Positions 13,001 through 64,000 of a stretch of 64,000 bases of DNA are shown piece after piece (within the stretch, counting starts at the first letter, position 1; every line of letters begins with the position of its first letter). The notes beneath the pieces are model-generated. The model was given only the letters and a program-made list of their open reading frames with translations, had not been told where the DNA came from and did no database searches. The translations under genes were made by a program, and so were the position numbers. The DNA comes from Basidiobolus meristosporus CBS 931.73 (taxonomy: Eukaryota > Basidiobolomycota > Basidiobolomycetes > Basidiobolales > Basidiobolaceae), in NCBI GenBank assembly GCA_002104905.1, contig MCFE01000282.1, forward strand, positions 39,572 through 103,571, given 5' to 3'.

Positions 13001-16000
13001 TTATCTTGAAATAAAGTAATAGGCGTTTTTTGACATAGGCCTCAATCTAAAAAGTTTTCTTAACCACATTGCTTCTTTTGTAGCTTCACAGGCTGCCATA
13101 TACTCTGCCTCTGTGGTGGAAAGTGCTACGGTTGGTTGCTTTCTTGAATTCCATGAAATTGCTCCTTTCCAGTAAAGAAAGGTGTATCCTGTTGTGGATC
13201 TTCTGTCTTCCAAATTTTGTCCTCAATCGGCATCAGAGTATCCCACAAGATCCTGTTCTAAATCCTTATAAGTGTATCTTAAGCAAATATCAGCCATTCC
13301 TTTTAGGTATCTAAAGATATGTTTAACTGCTGCAATATGATCAGATCCATAGCTCTCATTATGTTGGCTGACAACTCCCACTGAATATGAGATATCTGGA
13401 CATGTTCCAAGCATGATATACATCAGACTGCTGACCATAGATTGATAAGGAAAGTCAGGGCTTTCAGATGGCACCAAGCTCTCTTGATTTGGTTGAGTTT
13501 TGACTAAGTTAAGGTTTGTCTCCATTGGGGTAGCTGCTGGTTTACAGTCTTCCATTTGGTACTTCTTTAGTATATCTTGAATATACTTGGATTGGCTTAG
13601 GGTGATTGTCTGGGTACTTCTGTCTATGGAGAACTTAATCCCTAAGTAGTACCTGAGTTCTCCTAGATCAGACATCTTGAACTCCTTAGATAGGCTGGAT
13701 TTAGTCTCTTCCAATGTTTCTAGGTTATTGGTGGCTATAATAAGATCATCCACATGAAGAGCTAATAGAACTGGATTTGCTCTATCTGGCTTATAGTTTA
13801 TGCTATAGTCAGCATTACTCCTTTTGAAACTCAAAGATTCCAAATAAGAATCTATCTTGCAGTTCCAGGCTCTTGGTGATTGTTTGAGACCATAAAGTGA
13901 TTTTTTAAGCTTGCATACCAAATTAGGGTTATGTTGGTCAGCAAACCCATCTGGCTGGTCCATATACATGTCCTCATCAAGTTCTCCATTCAAAAATGCA
14001 GGTTTTACATCCATTTGATGAATAGAAACATATATTTGGCTGCAATAGCCAATATTAATCTGATGGAATTAAACTTGGCTACTGGTGCAAAGGTCTCAGT
14101 ATAGTCAAGTCCTTTTGTTTGAGAGTATCCTTTGGCTACAAGTCTTGCTTTATATCTCTCAATTGTACCATCAGCCTTGTATTTTGTCTTGAAGACCCAT
14201 CTACATCCAATTGATTTTTGGTTGATTGGTAATATGACTAAGTCCCAAATTTGATTTTCCATCAGGGTCTGATATTCCTCAGTCATTGCAGATCTCCAAA
14301 ACTTTGTCTGAGGGCTATTTAGGGCCTCTTTTACAGTCTGAGGTTCATCAATATGAACTGAATAGGCATAGGCTAAGTTTGTACCCTCATTGATAAAGTA
14401 ATTTGGGCTATTTCTTGTCCAATTGGATCTCCGGGCATCTGATACTGGAATGATCACTTCTGGGATATTCCTGGGCACTGATTCTGGCTGAACCATGGTT
14501 GTAGAGTCCTCTGGAGTGAAAAATTCTCATTGTTTTGCTCTGATTCAATCCTGACAATTGGCGGACTTGAGATCAAATTTTTGTCATCATCTGATGTCAT
14601 TTTTTGTGAAAATTTTGAATTTTCATCAAACAACACATCCCTGGACTTGATCGGCTACTTTGCTTTGGTATTGTAGAGTCTGTATGCCTTACTCTTATTG
14701 CTGTAGCCCAAAAACATGTATTTTACACTTTTTGGCTCAAATTTTGACTGATTTCCAGCCAGTTTTTTAGCATATGCTGTACACCCAAATATTCTTAGAT
14801 GTCCTGCACTTGGTCTGTATCCATACCATGCTTCAAATGGAGTAGTTTCACAGAGTATTCTGTTATAACTCCTATTTTTAAGGTATACAGCAGTGGCAAT
14901 GAATTCCGCCCAAAAATCATAGGATAATTTTTGATCATGGATCATAGATCTTGCCATATCAATTATTGATCTGTTAGCACATCCTGCTACTCCATTTTGC
15001 TGTGGGGAGTATGGTACAGTAGTCTCTTGCTTTATCCAATGAATTTTGCAGAAGTGGATGAAGAGTTTTGAAGTATATTCTCCACCATTGTCAGAGCGTA
15101 TTTTCTTGATTTTTTCACCAGTTTCTCTCTCCACCATGGCTTTAAACTCCCTGAACTTAGACGGAGCTTCTTCCTTTCTCTCCATGAAGTAGACCCATGT
15201 GTATCTTGTATAATCATCAATAAAAGTGATTAAATACTTCATCCCGCCTAAGGATAAATTTTGCATAGGTCCACACAGATCTGAGTGAATTAGATCTAAT
15301 TTTTTCTTAGTTTTGATCAACCCAGAGCTCTTGAACAGTTGTCTGGCTTGTTTCCCATATATGCAGGCTTCACAGTGCTCCAAATTAGCTGGGGGATCAA
15401 TTTTCACTCCAGAAATTAGCTGATCCTTGATCATTTTACACAAATAATCAAAATTGATGTGTCCAAATCTCCTGTGCCAAAATATTGGTGTTTCTTTATT
15501 TAAGTTACTTCTATTGGCTTCCAAATATGATGGAATATAAGTCAACTTGTATAGATTCTGATCTTGGATGCCCAAAGCAATATGGGCACCATTTTGATCA
15601 GTTATCCTGCATCCAGAATTGTCAAAACTGAAGCTGAGTCCTTCTGCTATGGCCTTGCTTACAGAGAGTAGGTTCTTGGCTATTTCTGGCACATAGAGTA
15701 CTTCTTTAAAGGTCAGTGTATGGCTTCCTTCACTGCTTCTAAGGTTTACTTGGATAGTTCCTTCTCCCACTGCATCAAGTGTTCTATTGTCACCCATGAA
15801 AACCTTCTTAATTGGAATTTCTTGATATTGGGTAAAAAGTTCTTTTTGGAGTGTAAAGTGTTGAGAAGCTCCAGAGTCAATATACCATGTCTGATAATCC
15901 TTGTTTGTGGTCATATTTAGTGCAGATATGAATAGTCTATCTTCAGTTGTTGCAGCATTTCCATATTCAGTCTTCTTTTGCTGATAATCTCTCTTTTTGA

Positions 16001-16502
16001 GACACCGGTCTGATGTGTGTCCTTTCCTTTTGCAGTAGTTGCAAAACAGGTTGCTGTTGCCTTTGTAGGGTCTTGGGTACCTCCTTTGTTTGTTATCATT
16101 GCTTATTAAAGCATTTTCTTCTTCCTTCTTATTAGCGCTTGATTTTCTTAATTCTTCATCCAGGAGTCTTCCATATACATAGTTTAAGATCAAATCTTCA
16201 GTTCTGGACTCTAGGGCAGATACAAGGTCCTGAAACTTGTCTGTCAGGCTATTCAGGATGGTAACTATTAGCAATTTGTCCCTGACATTAAGGCAAATGC
16301 AGTTAAAGGCACTTTGTTCTTTCTTCTGGTACTTCAAGGCTTCCTCTCCCACGTTTTTAGGAGGGCATTCTTCTCCCATGACAATATCCAAAAGGCCTCT
16401 TTCTTGCAGCAGCATCTTCATCTTCACCTTCCACACTTGCTAGTTAGATCCATCCAACTTCTCAGCAGAGGGAAAAATTCCAGTAATAGCAGTAGTAGAC
16501 AT
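13001..16502 (-). pseudogene. copia Gag-Pol polyprotein with stops and frameshifts
   Basis: The likely start is the ATG at 16502. An in-frame TAG at 16442-16440 replaces a tyrosine-like position shortly after (SN-stop-QVW). The longest open part is 16436-14655. It has a gag zinc knuckle CNYCKRKGHTSDRC, protease WYIDSGASQHF, GAG-pre FWHRRFGH, and an integrase core with HSDLCGPM, FIDDYTRY, IRSDNGGEY and SPQQNGVAG. Three further frames follow. Reverse transcriptase has WVFKTK, FLNGELDE, LYGLKQSPRAW and HVDDLIIA. RNase H has [22 protein letters not shown]. Breaks near 14650, 14500, 14010 and 13220 separate the frames. All domains were present; the present copy is inactive as a single protein. Confidence 0.9.
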
Positions 16503-58363: not shown

Positions 58364-58440
58364 TTTAGGGGGATGATAACCACCAAAGGGTGAAATCTTT
58401 ATTTAATTCATAAACAAAGAAGCCAAGTTTGAACATGAAT
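58364..58440 (-). mobile_element. 5'-truncated retroelement tail at a telomeric junction (unit S1)
   Basis: TTTAGGGGG at 58364-58372 is followed by a tail matching the LINE 3' UTR. The hairpin arms are 58380-58384 and 58389-58393 (loop AAAG), then GAAATCTTTATTTAA and AAAGAAGCCAAG. Only about 68 bp of the element remain. It is the oldest, most centromere-proximal of three stacked units. Confidence 0.75.
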
Positions 58441-58455
58441 TTAGGGTTAGGGGGG
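58440..58455. repeat. Internal telomeric stretch at the SINE 3' junction
   Basis: TTTAGGGTTAGGGGGG: two telomeric repeats ending in six G. Confidence 0.85.
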
Positions 58456-58532
58456 AGGAAAGTCACCAAGTGGTGAAATCTTTATTTACTTATGACAAGT
58501 ATCTAAAGAAGCCAAGTTAATCTGAAGTTATT

Positions 58533-58651
58533 CCTAGAAAGCTAGGTCTGAGAGATATCTTCCTGGTAAGCCAGGTCTGAGAGTTGAGAAGCTGAGTGGT
58601 ACTATATTTCCTAGTTAGCTAGGTCTGAGAGAGGTTTCCTGGAAAGCCAGG
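58533..58651. repeat. Four short palindromic hairpins in the SINE body
   Basis: CCTAGAAAGCTAGG (58533-58546), CCTGGTAAGCCAGG (58562-58575), CCTAGTTAGCTAGG (58610-58623) and CCTGGAAAGCCAGG (58638-58651), each followed by a TCTGAGA-like box. They form two pairs, spaced 29 and 28 bp within a pair. Stems alternate between an A-T and a G-C pair, keeping pairing. Confidence 0.9.
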
Positions 58652-58904
58652 CCTGAGAAGTGAGAATCTGAATATATCTGAGCTAAGTTATACTGGTTTG
58701 CGGTAGCTGAATTGTGGCCGGAATGGCCAGTAGACTGGGGGAACTGAGATGAATTTCTGGGCGATCACTGGCCATATTTTCTAGGCAAATCTGGCCAATT
58801 AGCATTTCAAGGATTTCAGCCAATCAGAGCCTTTACTTTGCCCGATGGTTGATCAAGCCATCTCCCAATGAGCACACATCAATTTATTAATCAAATTTTG
58901 CTGG

Positions 58905-58975
58905 ATCCAGGATTTGAACCCACAACCATGGGTATGGAAGGGTTAGGGATAACCACAAGGCTAAGTGTTCTTGGT
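58905..58975 (-). promoter_or_regulatory. Pol III type 2 promoter of the SINE
   Basis: A and B boxes at tRNA spacing (see the SINE entry). The fold is not a good cloverleaf, so I do not call a functional tRNA gene. Confidence 0.65.
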
Positions 58976-58976
58976 T

Positions 58977-58995
58977 AGCTTAGGTTTAGGGGGGG
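58977..58995. repeat. Internal telomeric stretch at the LINE 3' junction
   Basis: AGCTTAGGTTTAGGGGGGG: degenerate telomeric repeats ending in seven G, directly joined to the LINE 3' end. Confidence 0.8.
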
Positions 58996-59050
58996 AGACA
59001 GTCACCAACAGGTGAAATCTTTATTTCAGTTGAAACAAAGAAGCCAGCGC
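58996..59050 (-). promoter_or_regulatory. LINE 3' UTR with conserved stem-loop
   Basis: Runs from the ORF2 stop to the telomeric junction. Contains GGCTTCTTTG, an AATAAA (59022-59027 region on the minus strand) and the hairpin 59002-59006/59011-59015 with a 4-base loop. Shared by the SINE and the truncated tail. Likely the recognition site for the reverse transcriptase. Confidence 0.7.
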
Positions 59051-61818
59051 TACTGTTGTAGCTTTGATACAAGAGTGTGTAGCTGAGGGGAATTTGTAGG
59101 TAAGTTAATAAGAAGTGATGATAGTTCTTCAGTGCTCAAGACACTGTTCAGTGGGAAGGGGGGTAGCAAGAGAGGTAAGAATGACTTGTGAACAACATTA
59201 ATGAGGGGAATGTGATAAGGATTGATATTCATCATAAAGGGAGTGTGCTGCTGCAGATATTGCTGCCAAAGGTCTGTCAAGTACTTCAGGTAGGCCAGCT
59301 TGGGTTTTTCTGACTGCAGAATAAATTCTGCAAACTTCTTGACTTCAGGATCTCCAAGTATAGTTCTCCAGCAGGAGCCAGGTGTTGTGTGGTGTGTTCT
59401 CTTCCAGGCCTTAATCAGTGGGTTGTTGCAGTGGTGAAGTCTGAGATATAATCTGGTTCTAAGGTAGAGAAGTCTGATCTTATAGGGCATAAACCCAAAA
59501 GCACCAAGAATAGCATGTCTGTAGGGGCATTCAGGCAAATGAGGCACCAAGGAGGTAATGCACCATACTGCAAACTTGTCAAGCTTAGTGCAGTCTCTAG
59601 AAGTAAGAGAGAGAAGTGGTAAGCCAAATTCCAGTACAGGGAAGACAAACTGCTTGAGTAGAAGAAGGCAGCTGGGAGCTGAAGTTGTAGGAGGAGTAAC
59701 AGCCAGTAGCTTGTGGAGTGCCTGTCTTGCCAGGATAATTCTCTTCTTCAGGTGTGCTCCAGAGTCTAGTCCAGTAGGAAGGAAAGGAAAGCCAAGATAT
59801 GTAGCAGAAACCTGAGCAGGTAGAGTGGAGTTCTCTAAGGTGATGGGAGAGCCCAAAGGTACTGTCTTTGCAATGGAAAGCTGGAGATTATTCTTCTGCA
59901 GATACTGGTGGATGGTCTGGGAGTCTTGTTGCACATTGGAGGAGGATATTCTGATGTCATCAGCAAAGAGAGTAACCAGGCAGTCAGCTGAGAGTCTTGG
60001 GAAATCATTCAGGAAGATGGCAAACAGTATAGGACCAAGCACAGAGCCTTGAACCACTCCATTAGGAACTGAGAACACAGCTGATTGCTCACTTGGGTGC
60101 AGAATTCTTGCTTGTGGATCCAGAAACAGGGACCTGACAAGGAGGGTGAGAGAGGTACTGGAGAAGCATTGCAACTTGGACCAAAGCAGATTTCTGTCAA
60201 CTGAATCAAAGGCCTTAGTAATATCAAACAGAACTGAGGGATACCTGCACTGGAGAGAGTGATCTTGGCTAAGTATGACTGCATATTCCAAGGAGAGGCC
60301 AGGAACAAAGCCAAACTGTGCAGGATGAAACTTGAGAGAGTCAGAGTAGAGCTCCTGAGCAAGCAGAAGCTCAAACACCTTTCTGCAGGTGGGCAGCAGA
60401 GATATTGGCCTGTAGGAGCTAGGATCCAGGTGCTTTCCTTTACCCTTGTACAGTGGCAGAACATTTGCAAAGGACCATTCCTCAGGAGTAGAAAGCTGGG
60501 CTGAGCATTGCTGAAACAGTGGAAGCAGAAGTGCAGACATGGCCTTGGTACTAGTCTTCAGAAGCTCATAGGAGATTGTGTCCACACCTGGAGCAGTAGA
60601 GTTGGGAAGCCTCTTGAGCACATTATGGATTCTCCTTTGATCAAGTGCAAGTGGGATGGGCAGAGTCTTGAAGTCAGGATGAAAGCCAGGAGTTGAGTAC
60701 TGCTTTGTAGAGAAGAAGATGTTAGCCAGCTGTTCTGTTGAAGGTAACTTCCTGGAAGAGGGCCGCATTGCCCTGTAGAGTCTTGATACTGTTCTTGTTA
60801 TAGAGTTGGAAGATTGCAGAGGCAAGGAACTCATAATATGATCCCAGAGCTGAGTATGCAGAGTGTGGTGAATTGCCTTGGAGTGGTGTATTGCTGTCAG
60901 GAGGAGTTTCTCTGTTTTTGGGTTAGGGAAACTCAGGTAGCTTTGTTGCAGGGCTGAAACAATGGATTCCCATTTTCTTGAGGTAACAGCAGTAGTCTTG
61001 CATGGCAGTGAGAGGGAGGCAGACACCAGAATCAGATGCTTCACAAAGAGCCAGGCATAGTTGAGATCATCTGGCAGAGAAAGTAGCAAACTGGCAAGCT
61101 TCAAGTAGTTCCCAAAGTCTTTCTTCTGATTCTTGGTAGCTTTGTGGGTGAGCACAGTAAGTTTTGGCAGCTTCTTCTTCACAACTGGTTGCATAGAAAG
61201 GGACCAGGCTGGGTGGTCAGAGGCTCTCAAGGATCCTAGCTCAGCTCCAGAGAATTGCTTAACTTCATCCACAAAGTAGAGGGCAGCAGCAGCAGGGCAG
61301 ATCCAGTCAACACATCTTTTCTCAGATTGGGCACCTAGTGCTAGCAGATGGCTTTCTCTCAGGAAGTTCAGTAGGAATGTAGACCTTGGCTTCATTCTTG
61401 CAGTCAGAGTAGTCTTGTTCTCAGGATGGGGAATGTTGAGATCTCCAAGCAAGATAATAGGTGTTGATATAGATTGCTGGTATTGCTGAACTTTCTGGCA
61501 TATAACGTGCACTTCCTGAAGGGCAAGACTTGGAGGCAGATAGCAGAGCACCAGACTGATAGTTGGCAACTGGAGAGCAGCACAGTAAGGGGAGTAAAGA
61601 GGAACACAGAGCTGAGGAGTATTGATTGTAGAAGAGATGAAGCAGATAGAGGAGGTATTCTTTGTTCTAGGAGTAGAAAAGCAATATAGATTAGTCAAAA
61701 GTATAGAGGGTAGCTGGACATCAATCAAACACAGGAGGGAAAATCTTGAAAGAAGTCTCTCTAGAGTTGGTCTTGATGGCTGTATGCTGTTGCAGTTAAG
61801 CAACAGAACTTCAGGTAG
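59050..61818 (-). CDS. LINE ORF2: AP-like endonuclease and reverse transcriptase
   Basis: About 920 codons, open from just after the ORF1 stop. An apurinic-type endonuclease domain comes first: LLLNCNS, CLIDVQ (the usual QET catalytic Glu appears as Asp), ILLGDLN, VDWIC and ASDHPAW. Reverse transcriptase follows: NSTAPGVDTISYELLK, VLPLYKGKG, YRPISLLP, FGFVPG, DITKAFDSVD, GVVQGSVLGPILF, the catalytic TLFADDIRIS and the thumb. The C-terminal part has CYxC-like ECPYRHAILGAFG. There is no RNase H and no terminal zinc knuckle. No AUG occurs before the GDLN motif in this frame, so translation must start by readthrough from ORF1, by a non-AUG codon, or by reinitiation. Confidence 0.92.
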   Translation of the reverse strand, partial: LPEVLLLNCNSIQPSRPTLERLLSRFSLLCLIDVQLPSILLTNLYCFSTPRTKNTSSICFISSTINTPQLCVPLYSPYCAALQLPTISLVLCYLPPSLALQEVHVICQKVQQYQQSISTPIILLGDLNIPHPENKTTLTARMKPRSTFLLNFLRESHLLALGAQSEKRCVDWICPAAAALYFVDEVKQFSGAELGSLRASDHPAWSLSMQPVVKKKLPKLTVLTHKATKNQKKDFGNYLKLASLLLSLPDDLNYAWLFVKHLILVSASLSLPCKTTAVTSRKWESIVSALQQSYLSFPNPKTEKLLLTAIHHSKAIHHTLHTQLWDHIMSSLPLQSSNSITRTVSRLYRAMRPSSRKLPSTEQLANIFFSTKQYSTPGFHPDFKTLPIPLALDQRRIHNVLKRLPNSTAPGVDTISYELLKTSTKAMSALLLPLFQQCSAQLSTPEEWSFANVLPLYKGKGKHLDPSSYRPISLLPTCRKVFELLLAQELYSDSLKFHPAQFGFVPGLSLEYAVILSQDHSLQCRYPSVLFDITKAFDSVDRNLLWSKLQCFSSTSLTLLVRSLFLDPQARILHPSEQSAVFSVPNGVVQGSVLGPILFAIFLNDFPRLSADCLVTLFADDIRISSSNVQQDSQTIHQYLQKNNLQLSIAKTVPLGSPITLENSTLPAQVSATYLGFPFLPTGLDSGAHLKKRIILARQALHKLLAVTPPTTSAPSCLLLLKQFVFPVLEFGLPLLSLTSRDCTKLDKFAVWCITSLVPHLPECPYRHAILGAFGFMPYKIRLLYLRTRLYLRLHHCNNPLIKAWKRTHHTTPGSCWRTILGDPEVKKFAEFILQSEKPKLAYLKYLTDLWQQYLQQHTPFMMNINPYHIPLINVVHKSFLPLLLPPFPLNSVLSTEELSSLLINLPTNSPQLHTLVSKLQQ

Positions 61819-61821
61819 TCA
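61816..61821 (-). promoter_or_regulatory. Putative stop-codon readthrough site UGA-CUA
   Basis: The minus strand reads GCC TGA CTA CCT between ORF1 and ORF2, which share a frame. UGA followed by CUA is the best characterised leaky stop context in eukaryotes. Whether it is used here is inference. Confidence 0.55.
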
Positions 61822-63354
61822 GGCAGAGTTTGTAGCTTCTTCAGAGGCAGCATTGACAATGTGACCTGCAGAGTCCCAGAGCTCTTCAAATGGTGCATCA
61901 CTTAAGTCAGCAAGGAGGGAAATGGCATGGTTCTTGAGGAAGTATGCCACATCATAGGAGGGGGCTTGTCTCTTGATGGCAGCAAAGAAAGACAGAATGG
62001 CAACATGGGCTGGAGGCTTGTTGAACAGTAGAGAGTCAGAGGATTCAGATTCTTCAGGCACTATCTTGAAGTCAGTTTTCAGCCAGTTAAGGTTCTTCTC
62101 CACAAAGGCAACAAATGGGTCAGCAATGTTTTGGTCTAGGATAACCTCCAGAATCTTCCCTTTTCTCCAGGCCAGGTTGACAATTCTTGAGAGCTGAATA
62201 TTGCATGCCTTGAGTGCTTTCCTGATGTTGGAAATGGGAGTCCAGGGAACTTGCTTCAAGTACACCACAGTCCAGGTAGAAGCTGGTGGTAGGTTTGCTG
62301 GGGGCTTGTAAGTCCTTCTGTGTGGCAATGGAGCTGCAGTAGTCAGATTGGAGTCCACATTCTCAGTAGAGGGTTTTCTTGATGTCTCTTGCTGAATGGT
62401 ACTGGAGCTGGATGTGTTGATAATTCTTGCTAGAACCTTGCCTGCATAAGTCTGAGGTATAGCTGAGGTGACTGTAGAGGTGGTGGCAGCTGGTGCAGGT
62501 GGAGAGGCAGAAACTGAAGCAGGAACTGAGGTCACCTGGGAGAAGGCAGTAGAAGCAGGTTTTCTGGGAGGAACAGAGTTCACTATCCAGTTGTTCTGTA
62601 AAACACTGGAGTAGCTTTTCTGTGGAACAGGATCTTGCTCTTGAACAGGAATAGAAGCAGCAGGCTGGGGCTGAGCAGTAGTGGTAAGGCAGTGGCACTC
62701 CAAGGAAGCTTTTTGCAAGGCATCTCTGGCAGTTTTCAGGGCAGTATTGGCTTCATTCTTGAGCTTCTTGCATTGGGCATCCAGTCTCTTGTTTTCAATA
62801 GTCAGGGCAGTATTGGCAGCCTCTAAATCAGCAATTCTCTTCTCAATTGCAAGGAATCTCTGAAGAAATGCATCAGTAGAAGTGCTGGCATCTGGGAGAG
62901 CAGTGGCAGGAATAGAGTCCATTGACAGTGGGCTTCTTGGAGGCAAGGAAAGTGGACTGGCAGATTCAGGCACAAAAGGAGATATCCTGGCAGGAGGAGA
63001 AGGAGTATCCAAGGCAGTAACAGAGGCAATTCTTGTTGGTGAAGCAGCAGCAGGGGAGGCAAGCCTGTTCAGAAACTGGGCAGGAGAGAGTGCTTGAGGA
63101 GAGGGAGTCTTCAGCTTGCCAAGCATGTCTTCCATCAGAGTGATACCAATATTCCTGGTGCATTTGCAGAGAAAAGTAAGCTTCCTGAGTCTGCCAGCTC
63201 TTCCATTCCTTCTGATAGTTCCTTTGTTTCCACAGTTGGGGCAAGAAATCTTCTTGATAGACTTGTCAAAGCAATCAAGAACCTTCCTTTCAGGTGTAGT
63301 GGGCTCCTGTTGAGGTTTTGGTGGCATATCCAGAGTTTCAGCTTCAAATTTCAA
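61819..63354 (-). CDS. LINE ORF1: zinc-ribbon, coiled-coil, RNA-binding-like protein
   Basis: 511 residues from the ATG at 63354. A zinc ribbon lies at about residues 28-65 (CFDKSIKKISCPNCGNKG ... FLCKCTRN). Then comes a long Pro/Ser/Ala-rich linker, and then a coiled coil at about 160-215 (FLQRFLAIEKRIADLEAAN, LDAQCKKLKNEA). After a second low-complexity linker, a C-terminal globular part (about 355-440: STWTVVYLKQVPWTPISNIRKALKACN, GKILEVILDQ) resembles an RRM-like or esterase-free L1 ORF1 C-terminal fold. The likely role is chaperoning the LINE RNA. The TGA stop (61821-61819) is followed directly by CTA and is in frame with ORF2. Confidence 0.88.
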   Translation of the reverse strand: MKFEAETLDMPPKPQQEPTTPERKVLDCFDKSIKKISCPNCGNKGTIRRNGRAGRLRKLTFLCKCTRNIGITLMEDMLGKLKTPSPQALSPAQFLNRLASPAAASPTRIASVTALDTPSPPARISPFVPESASPLSLPPRSPLSMDSIPATALPDASTSTDAFLQRFLAIEKRIADLEAANTALTIENKRLDAQCKKLKNEANTALKTARDALQKASLECHCLTTTAQPQPAASIPVQEQDPVPQKSYSSVLQNNWIVNSVPPRKPASTAFSQVTSVPASVSASPPAPAATTSTVTSAIPQTYAGKVLARIINTSSSSTIQQETSRKPSTENVDSNLTTAAPLPHRRTYKPPANLPPASTWTVVYLKQVPWTPISNIRKALKACNIQLSRIVNLAWRKGKILEVILDQNIADPFVAFVEKNLNWLKTDFKIVPEESESSDSLLFNKPPAHVAILSFFAAIKRQAPSYDVAYFLKNHAISLLADLSDAPFEELWDSAGHIVNAASEEATNSA

Positions 63355-63396
63355 TTTTTGAGATTTTTGGGTGATTTTTGATGGGCGGGATCAAAA

Positions 63397-63410
63397 TTAG
63401 GGTTAGGGTT
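63397..63410. repeat. Internal telomeric stretch at the LINE 5' junction
   Basis: TTAGGGTTAGGGTT directly beyond the LINE 5' end. Confidence 0.9.
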
Positions 63411-63770
63411 GCGCGCTGTGACTGCTTTTTACGATCGCAAGGTCAGAACCTAGGAAAAAATAAAAATAGTTAGTAAAGGTGATTTAATGGATGGATGGAT
63501 GGATTCGGAGTCAGATTCAATCAAAAAATCAAATCGTTGACTAATTTAAAGAGGAAAAAATAAAAATAGTTAGTAAAGGTGATTTAATGGATGGATGGAT
63601 GGATTCGGAGTCAGATTCAATCAAAAAATCAAATCGTTGACTAATTTAAAGAGGGAAAAAATAAAAATAGTTAGTAAAGGTGATTTAATGGATGGATGGA
63701 TGGATTCGGAGTCAGATTCAATCAAAAAATCAAATCGTTGACTAATTTAAAGAGGGAAAAAATAAAATAG
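63411..63770. repeat. Subtelomeric 100-bp tandem satellite
   Basis: After a 42-bp unique GC-rich piece (GCGCGCTGTGACTGC...), a unit of 100-101 bp begins at about 63453, 63553, 63654 and 63755. Copies 1-3 are almost identical and differ mainly by one G in the GAGG/GAGGG start. Each contains four GGAT repeats and ends CGTTGACTAATTTAAAGA. Copy 4 stops after AATAAAATAG. Confidence 0.95.
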
Positions 63771-64000
63771 TTAGGGTTAGGGTTAGGGTTAGGGTTAGGG
63801 TTAGGGTTAGGGTTAGGGTTAGGGTTAGGGTTAGGGTTAGGGTTAGGGTTAGGGTTAGGGTTAGGGTTAGGGTTAGGGTTAGGGTTAGGGTTAGGGTTAG
63901 GGTTAGGGTTAGGGTTAGGGTTAGGGTTAGGGTTAGGGTTAGGGTTAGGGTTAGGGTTAGGGTTAGGGTTAGGGTTAGGGTTAGGGTTAGGGTTAGGGTT
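63771..64000. repeat. Telomere (TTAGGG)n
   Basis: About 38 perfect TTAGGG copies running to the right edge of the window. The G-rich strand runs 5'-3' outward, as at a right chromosome end. Confidence 0.99.

Follow-up and report, generated by a model that had tools for sequence, protein, structure and literature searches.

Retroelements beneath the telomere

The window considered here, the whole stretch of 64,000 bases that was analysed, is the last part of a 103,571-base contig (C516) in the assembly of the fungus Basidiobolus meristosporus CBS 931.73 (89.0 Mb in 1,311 contigs), and inspection of this contig covered the window. Because the window end is also the contig end, the (TTAGGG)38 array with which it closes (63770..64000, plus strand) is the assembled end of the contig. 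Beneath this terminal telomere lie three retroelements, all on the minus strand, with a proximal 3' end that joins TTAGGG in each case (joints at 58365, 58441 and 58986): reading from the interior outward, a fragment of a short gag-like element, a short interspersed nuclear element (SINE) and a long interspersed nuclear element (LINE), here families C, B and A. A preliminary description of this DNA had recognized the three joined 3' ends and their common orientation, and both hold up.

The innermost TTAGGG (58365..58370, plus strand) forms the proximal junction of the family-C 3' end (58371..58440, minus strand, 70 nt), which is 5'-truncated, matches a copy on contig C45 at 90% over 71 nt and has a predicted fold; first described as a truncated tail, it is a real 3' end that can now be assigned to a family. 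Two TTAGGG units (58441..58452, plus strand) separate it from the SINE (58453..58974, minus strand), apparently full length, with 5' end CCAAGAAC, a B-box-like GGTTCAAATCC and a LINE-type 3' tail. A degenerate telomeric tract (58975..58991, plus strand) then connects the 5' end of the SINE with the 3' end of the LINE (58992..63774, minus strand), which is the distal-most element and has the terminal telomere directly on top of it. The telomeric DNA between the elements amounts to tracts of only one or two repeats, too short to be called arrays.

The preliminary description had found the LINE, but ended it near 63395, some distance short of its actual limit at 63774, and had seen telomeric DNA on both of its sides. 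The proximal joint stands; the distal one, TTAGGGTTAGGG (63397..63408, plus strand), is rejected as a telomere joint, being part of the LINE's own 5' untranslated region (UTR). Window positions 63201-63554 are 98.6% identical to a LINE copy on contig C3, including both TTAGGGTTAGGG and a 100-bp tandem repeat (63453..63774) that has 3.2 units in the window and one unit in the C3 copy, indicating a 5' UTR of variable repeat number with the telomere directly on the LINE. A LINE broken at TTAGGGTTAGGG could provide a ready telomere seed there.

Copies and junctions across the genome

A 16-nt core of the 3' tail occurs 1,705 times in the genome (1,555 and 150 on the two strands). The first 100 of these listed were read together with the window's three, giving 103 tails on 27 contigs: 49 of family A, 27 of B, 12 of D, eight of E and seven of C. 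In 91 of the 103 copies TTAGGG is found no more than 45 nt proximal of the tail, as compared with six of 49 control windows of the same size placed about 250 nt further in (49 being the copies with enough flank), so that the association is not due to chance. The perfect tract is 6-12 nt long, or at most two repeats, in 88 of these 91 (median 8), the other three measuring 22, 23 and 28 nt. Each of the 12 tails without TTAGGG has 4-10 consecutive Gs within the last 40 nt, adjacent to the tail in 11. The register at the joints is TTAGGG followed by extra Gs, with a total G-run of 3-10, as expected if Cs in the RNA pair with the G-strand end and slip.

Orientation is equally regular. Wherever a contig has an assembled telomere (19 contigs), the copies point their 5' end toward it, 72 of 72. 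Of the 39 copies read on 11 contigs longer than 100 kb (2.08 Mb), none is more than 24.7 kb from the end it faces; places were listed contig by contig, so any exact tail in other parts of ten of those 11 contigs would have appeared. The proximal neighbour is a family member in 60 of the 103, with equal orientation in all 60, while 43 proximal flanks match none of the five family references. The 103 joints fall into 90 clusters, and the only clusters of more than two are the natural 5' end of the SINE on A, B, C and D tails. Eleven further copies (C3, C14, C69, C80) are on long contigs whose telomere is unassembled, while the remaining 20 (C27, C29, C32, C43) come from telomere-less contigs of about 20 kb, which give no check on orientation; with that proviso, neither interior copies nor mixed orientations relative to the telomere were seen in the sample.

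The joining of retroelement 3' ends to telomeric repeats is thus confirmed as real and extends beyond the window, and the telomere-targeting family proposed in the preliminary description is borne out: in their telomeric repeats and fixed orientation, these are telomere-specific non-LTR (non-long-terminal-repeat) retrotransposons. That the families are telomere-specific, with a 3' joint primed by the telomeric G-strand, we regard as close to certain.

A fragment at C2:258266-259978 has TTAGGG and a LINE tail at its broken end; judging from its translation, its long open reading frame (ORF) may resemble the RNase H/integrase of an LTR element.

Terminal telomeres and stacks

Arrays of 30 or more perfect repeats number 128 in the assembly (814 matches less 686). 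Twenty contigs were picked by telomere length only ((TTAGGG)30, among the first 100 places listed), and in 15 of them the telomere rests on the 5' break of an element, in the same orientation in all 15: the element is A in six, B in seven, C in one and D in one, and the distance from telomere to break is at most 8 nt in 14 and 27 nt in the other (C258); the telomeres of C58, C202, C208, C249 and C285 do not rest on an element break. In the tail-selected set, which has nine contigs in common with the length-selected one, a telomere is present at 19 of 29 contig ends inspected, with an element within 25 nt in 15 of the 19 (at C82 by a 28-nt match only).

Stacks can be deeper than that in the window. 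At C2:259984-263973 there are four head-to-tail 5'-truncated LINEs of 113, 116, 1,001 and 2,748 bp, 98.4-100% identical to the window copy, the last of which meets the telomere at 263974. Nested insertion was considered and rejected as the source of such truncations: on the maps of C2 and C32, ten truncated copies have another element directly after them, and none of the ten resumes past it. Resumption is seen around an unrelated 696-bp insert in a LINE on C27 (C27:2387-3082, flanked on either side by about 6 bp of duplicated LINE sequence), so nesting is detectable in this way. Where a truncated end meets TTAGGG, the two overlap by a mean of 2.05 nt (21 joints retained, at 90% identity or better and with at least 10 of 12 matching bases), versus 0.75 nt in simulation, with none of 10,000 draws as high.

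Stretches of the RNA-binding domain of the telomerase reverse transcriptase, TERT, are present on contig C880, one of the two holding a stop (an intron or a break). Together with the terminal TTAGGG arrays they support the earlier suggestion that telomerase would still be active.

Three other features of these ends can be mentioned. (TTAGGG)4 words number 7,428 on the plus strand and 81 on the minus strand, the telomere always being at the right end in the contigs read; this bias is probably an assembly effect. The C249 telomere abuts a tRNA-Lys(CTT) gene (C249:12614-12686), with a tRNA-Ala gene about 180 bp inward. A further unit, Unit X (C45:5366-10482, C32:12224-16770), has a fixed edge, AGGGTGTAGGTGTTATAG, which directly follows either TTAGGG or the 5' end of an element and occurs at 143 places when up to two mismatches are allowed. 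It carries a 155-bp tandem repeat and, in antisense to the retroelements, an SNF2-related ORF (E 4e-30), and looks like a subtelomeric helicase unit.

The shared 3' tail

One 3' tail, consisting of hairpins and a C-run, is common to the LINE families A and E, the SINE and the gag-like families C and D. In the window LINE, hairpin 1 (UCUUUGUUUC/GAAAUAAAGA) is at 59018..59041 and hairpin 2 (UCACC-loop-GGUGA) at 59002..59015, both on the minus strand. Since the search word already dictates one arm in each of the hairpins, only the other is informative: for hairpin 2 this free 3' arm, GGTGA, is intact in 98 of 103 tails, has one change in four and is absent in one, with loops of 4-6 nt. Hairpin 1 is predicted in one tail from each of the five families, with a shorter and interrupted helix in B; one pair covaries, the one that closes it, which in the ten tails compared reads C-G for family A, A-U for C and G-C for both D and E. 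Tails of A, D and E fold better than nearly all of 200 shuffled versions (0, 3 and 2 shuffles, respectively, folding as well), and those of B and C do not (14 and 25), so that support for the tail structure is good in the case of the LINEs and D, and modest for B and C. An Rfam search gave no match. In sharing a 3' stem-loop, the SINE and the LINE match a LINE/SINE pair of the stringent type.

The LINE

ORF1 (61819..63327, minus strand, a range that includes the stop; 502 aa counted from the first ATG) and ORF2 (59050..61818, minus strand) are in the same frame, and are separated by a single UGA stop (61819..61821, minus strand) followed by CUA. The UGA-CUA is kept in the 100 listed of 149 copies, making it a candidate for programmed readthrough in a LINE. 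The coding regions are constrained as judged by the ratio of nonsynonymous to synonymous substitution rates (dN/dS), computed for ORF1 on eight open copies, since mixing in truncated ones gives 0.83.

ORF2 encodes an apurinic/apyrimidinic (AP)-type endonuclease and a reverse transcriptase (RT), in agreement with the earlier view that the LINE keeps an endonuclease. The N-terminal domain takes an AP-endonuclease fold in a predicted model (five input sequences; one of five models scored well, with a mean predicted local distance difference test (pLDDT) score of 79.2, the others 38-48), and among solved structures one of its nearest folds is that of the telomere-specific TRAS1 endonuclease (Foldseek E 2.6e-9); by sequence, the endonuclease has no match among solved structures. 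The domain is constrained (dN/dS 0.235). The Glu of its xETW motif is Asp in the window LINE, P0003 and P0005; it is Glu in six relatives having that segment. For ORF2 as a whole the best sequence match among solved structures is LINE-1 ORF2p (E 8e-13). Among matches of the RT region to proteins with a stated organism, the best are P0007 (50% over 59% of the query) and P0008 (95% over 19%), both of B. meristosporus CBS 931.73. No restriction-like domain was found C-terminal to the RT in Pfam; a structure search of that part was not made. Two ORFs and a predicted AP-type endonuclease would place this LINE outside the CRE-type group of MoTeR and FoTeR.

SINE and gag-only families

The SINE 5' end CCAAGAAC is found at 10 of the 103 sampled junctions (13 counting near variants) and also under telomeres. 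Its GGTTCAAATCC resembles the B-box consensus; the A box is weak, and ARAGORN identified no tRNA in the SINE. Family C has a single 266-aa ORF, identical at 243 of 266 positions in two copies (dN/dS 0.29), which shares the C-terminal part of LINE ORF1 (29% over 154 aa, E 1e-17). The same part is common to family D, whose ORF is related to that of C (44%), with dN/dS 0.24 between two copies. The family-C copies on C45 and C82 end at the identical base (in C82 from a 28-nt match), which makes it likely that a complete element measures about 0.97 kb. The other LINE, family E, shares 58-66% identity with P0006.

In C and D an ORF1/gag-like gene is the only one found, and a gag-only element thus stands alongside an RT-bearing one, as in the HeT-A/TART arrangement; the absence of telomerase repeats that marks HeT-A/TART does not extend to this genome, with its TERT stretches and terminal TTAGGG.

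Elsewhere in the window there is a Copia-type retrotransposon (13223-16436, minus strand) in two open pieces with gag, integrase and RVT_2 domains.

How the chromosome ends may be built

One possibility, which by a narrow judgement we think the probable one, is that the five families form a consortium: LINEs A and E would supply the machinery, the SINE and the gag-only C and D would use it by virtue of the same tail, and priming would occur at free chromosome ends. The reverse transcriptase would bind the tail hairpins, and the C-run of the RNA would anneal to the GGG at the 3' end of the G-strand of the chromosome, in most cases when few repeats remain. This 3' end would prime synthesis of cDNA onto the chromosome, often incompletely, resulting in 5' truncation. 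Telomerase would then extend the cDNA 3' end with TTAGGG from a short seed, which could be the GG at full-length SINE and family-C ends or the 1-4 nt at truncations; when these repeats were lost in turn, the next element would be added. In its most complete form, the proposal is that retroelements and telomerase alternate in building the ends: LINEs, gag-only elements and SINE share a tail and heal near-bare ends, the cDNA end seeds telomerase, and ORF2 is produced by UGA-CUA readthrough. So many parts taken jointly are offered tentatively. Support comes from the common tail and C-run, the one-way stacking, the joints of one or two TTAGGG, the 5' breaks under telomeres and the TERT exons.

The principal competitor is ordinary target-primed insertion, in which the endonuclease would nick within telomeric arrays in the style of TRAS, SART and MoTeR, the array distal to the nick would remain as the cap, and tracts of three or more repeats would be lost later; we consider this a sizeable but lesser possibility. 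Observed orientation and TTAGGG joints are predicted equally by it, and it is favoured by the retention of a constrained AP-endonuclease (dN/dS 0.235) whose fold has TRAS1 among its nearest, and by the two-repeat limit on stability for MoTeRs in Magnaporthe, where interstitial tracts break once they reach three repeats (PMC7367193). On the other hand, uniform insertion into arrays of at least 30 repeats predicts long tracts, whereas 88 of 91 are no longer than 12 nt; 12 of 103 joints have no TTAGGG; the Glu of the xETW motif is Asp in the window LINE; and FoTeR copies typically retain three to seven repeats at the corresponding site (PMC12857005). Because of the short tracts, the G-only joints and the varied proximal sequence, we lean toward priming at free ends over nicking inside arrays.

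Two other explanations appear considerably weaker. Ends might grow by recombination, broken ends with one or two TTAGGG invading element edges and being extended by break-induced replication, with little retrotransposition: the fixed edge of Unit X after TTAGGG or element 5' ends, at its 143 places, fits this, as does comparable tandem amplification in Magnaporthe (PMC8381367). Copying would, however, repeat whole joints, whereas the 103 joints form 90 clusters, and the G-run varies from 3 to 10; the coding regions are constrained and a related 3' tail is found in five families, so that we consider growth of this kind improbable as the main process. Misjoining of repeats at contig ends is the least credible of all. 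It could be suspected from the odd strand bias of telomere words (7428 vs 81) and from the size of the sampled contigs, 16 of 27 being merely 17.9-20.0 kb, but the joints are exact and distinct, with overlaps of 1-4 nt, and the structure recurs kilobases inward of the tip where contigs are long (C1, C2, C25) and, reversed, at the left end of C80.

Relation to known systems

TRAS and SART of Bombyx are, like the Basidiobolus LINE, AP-endonuclease LINEs at telomeric repeats, and TRAS has the same orientation; their insertions lie inside TTAGG arrays and their 3' ends are poly(A), unlike the Basidiobolus elements with their joints of one or two repeats and their tail of hairpins and C-run. Athena elements of bdelloid rotifers are Penelope-like and are not known to have an endonuclease, and their truncated copies are attached to chromosome ends via short telomeric repeats; the Basidiobolus element differs in being a LINE with an endonuclease. 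In UnaL2/UnaSINE1 a SINE likewise carries the 3' hairpin tail of a LINE, but that pair is dispersed and the Basidiobolus pair telomeric. Drosophila is not known to have telomerase repeats and its telomeric elements end in poly(A), whereas Basidiobolus has TERT exons, TTAGGG caps and a C-run at the tail end. The likeness to HeT-A/TART/TAHRE lies in the stacks at chromosome ends and in the gag-only families C and D, which resemble the HeT-A arrangement: HeT-A is reported to have one ORF, without an RT, and to depend on other elements (PMC4700185).

The nearest fungal counterparts are MoTeR and FoTeR, which are likewise telomeric, with 5' ends toward the terminus, truncated copies and short TTAGGG joints; MoTeRs form head-to-tail arrays, and their partner MoTeR2 is probably non-autonomous (PMC7367193, PMC12857005). 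FoTeR also has variable 5' tandem repeats, as does the Basidiobolus LINE. MoTeR, FoTeR and Cnl1 have been placed in one clade with restriction-like endonucleases, MoTeR and FoTeR clustering with CRE and SLACS (PMC12857005); the Basidiobolus LINE, unlike these, has two ORFs and an AP-type fold, and belongs to a system that includes gag-only elements and a SINE, with proximal tracts of at most two repeats in 88 of 91. No report of such a system in Basidiobolus, and no telomere-specific SINE, was found among the matches listed from the open-licence PubMed Central (PMC) literature: the one paper with Basidiobolus, "telomer-" and "retrotransposon" (PMC11258239) has Basidiobolus, within its excerpts, in the references only, and the sole "subtelomeric SINE" match concerns frog SINEs that are spread genome-wide, with a subtelomeric minisatellite (PMC10794172). 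Telomeric LINEs are an already known kind of element; it is the combination of an AP-type LINE, gag-only elements and a SINE on one tail, at 15 of 20 telomeres and with TERT, that was not found among those matches.

For Basidiobolus, the significance is that a fungus which has retained telomerase shows Drosophila-style stacking at most sampled ends, with a LINE of the AP-endonuclease type taking part, and that short parasites seem to reach telomeres by possession of a tail alone. This makes several questions testable: how telomerase and retroelements share chromosome ends, what minimal RNA signal directs an element to telomeres, and whether the enzyme of a LINE can heal ends. If the proposal is true, one system would unite gag-only parasites of the HeT-A kind, arrays like those of MoTeR and a SINE addressed to telomeres.
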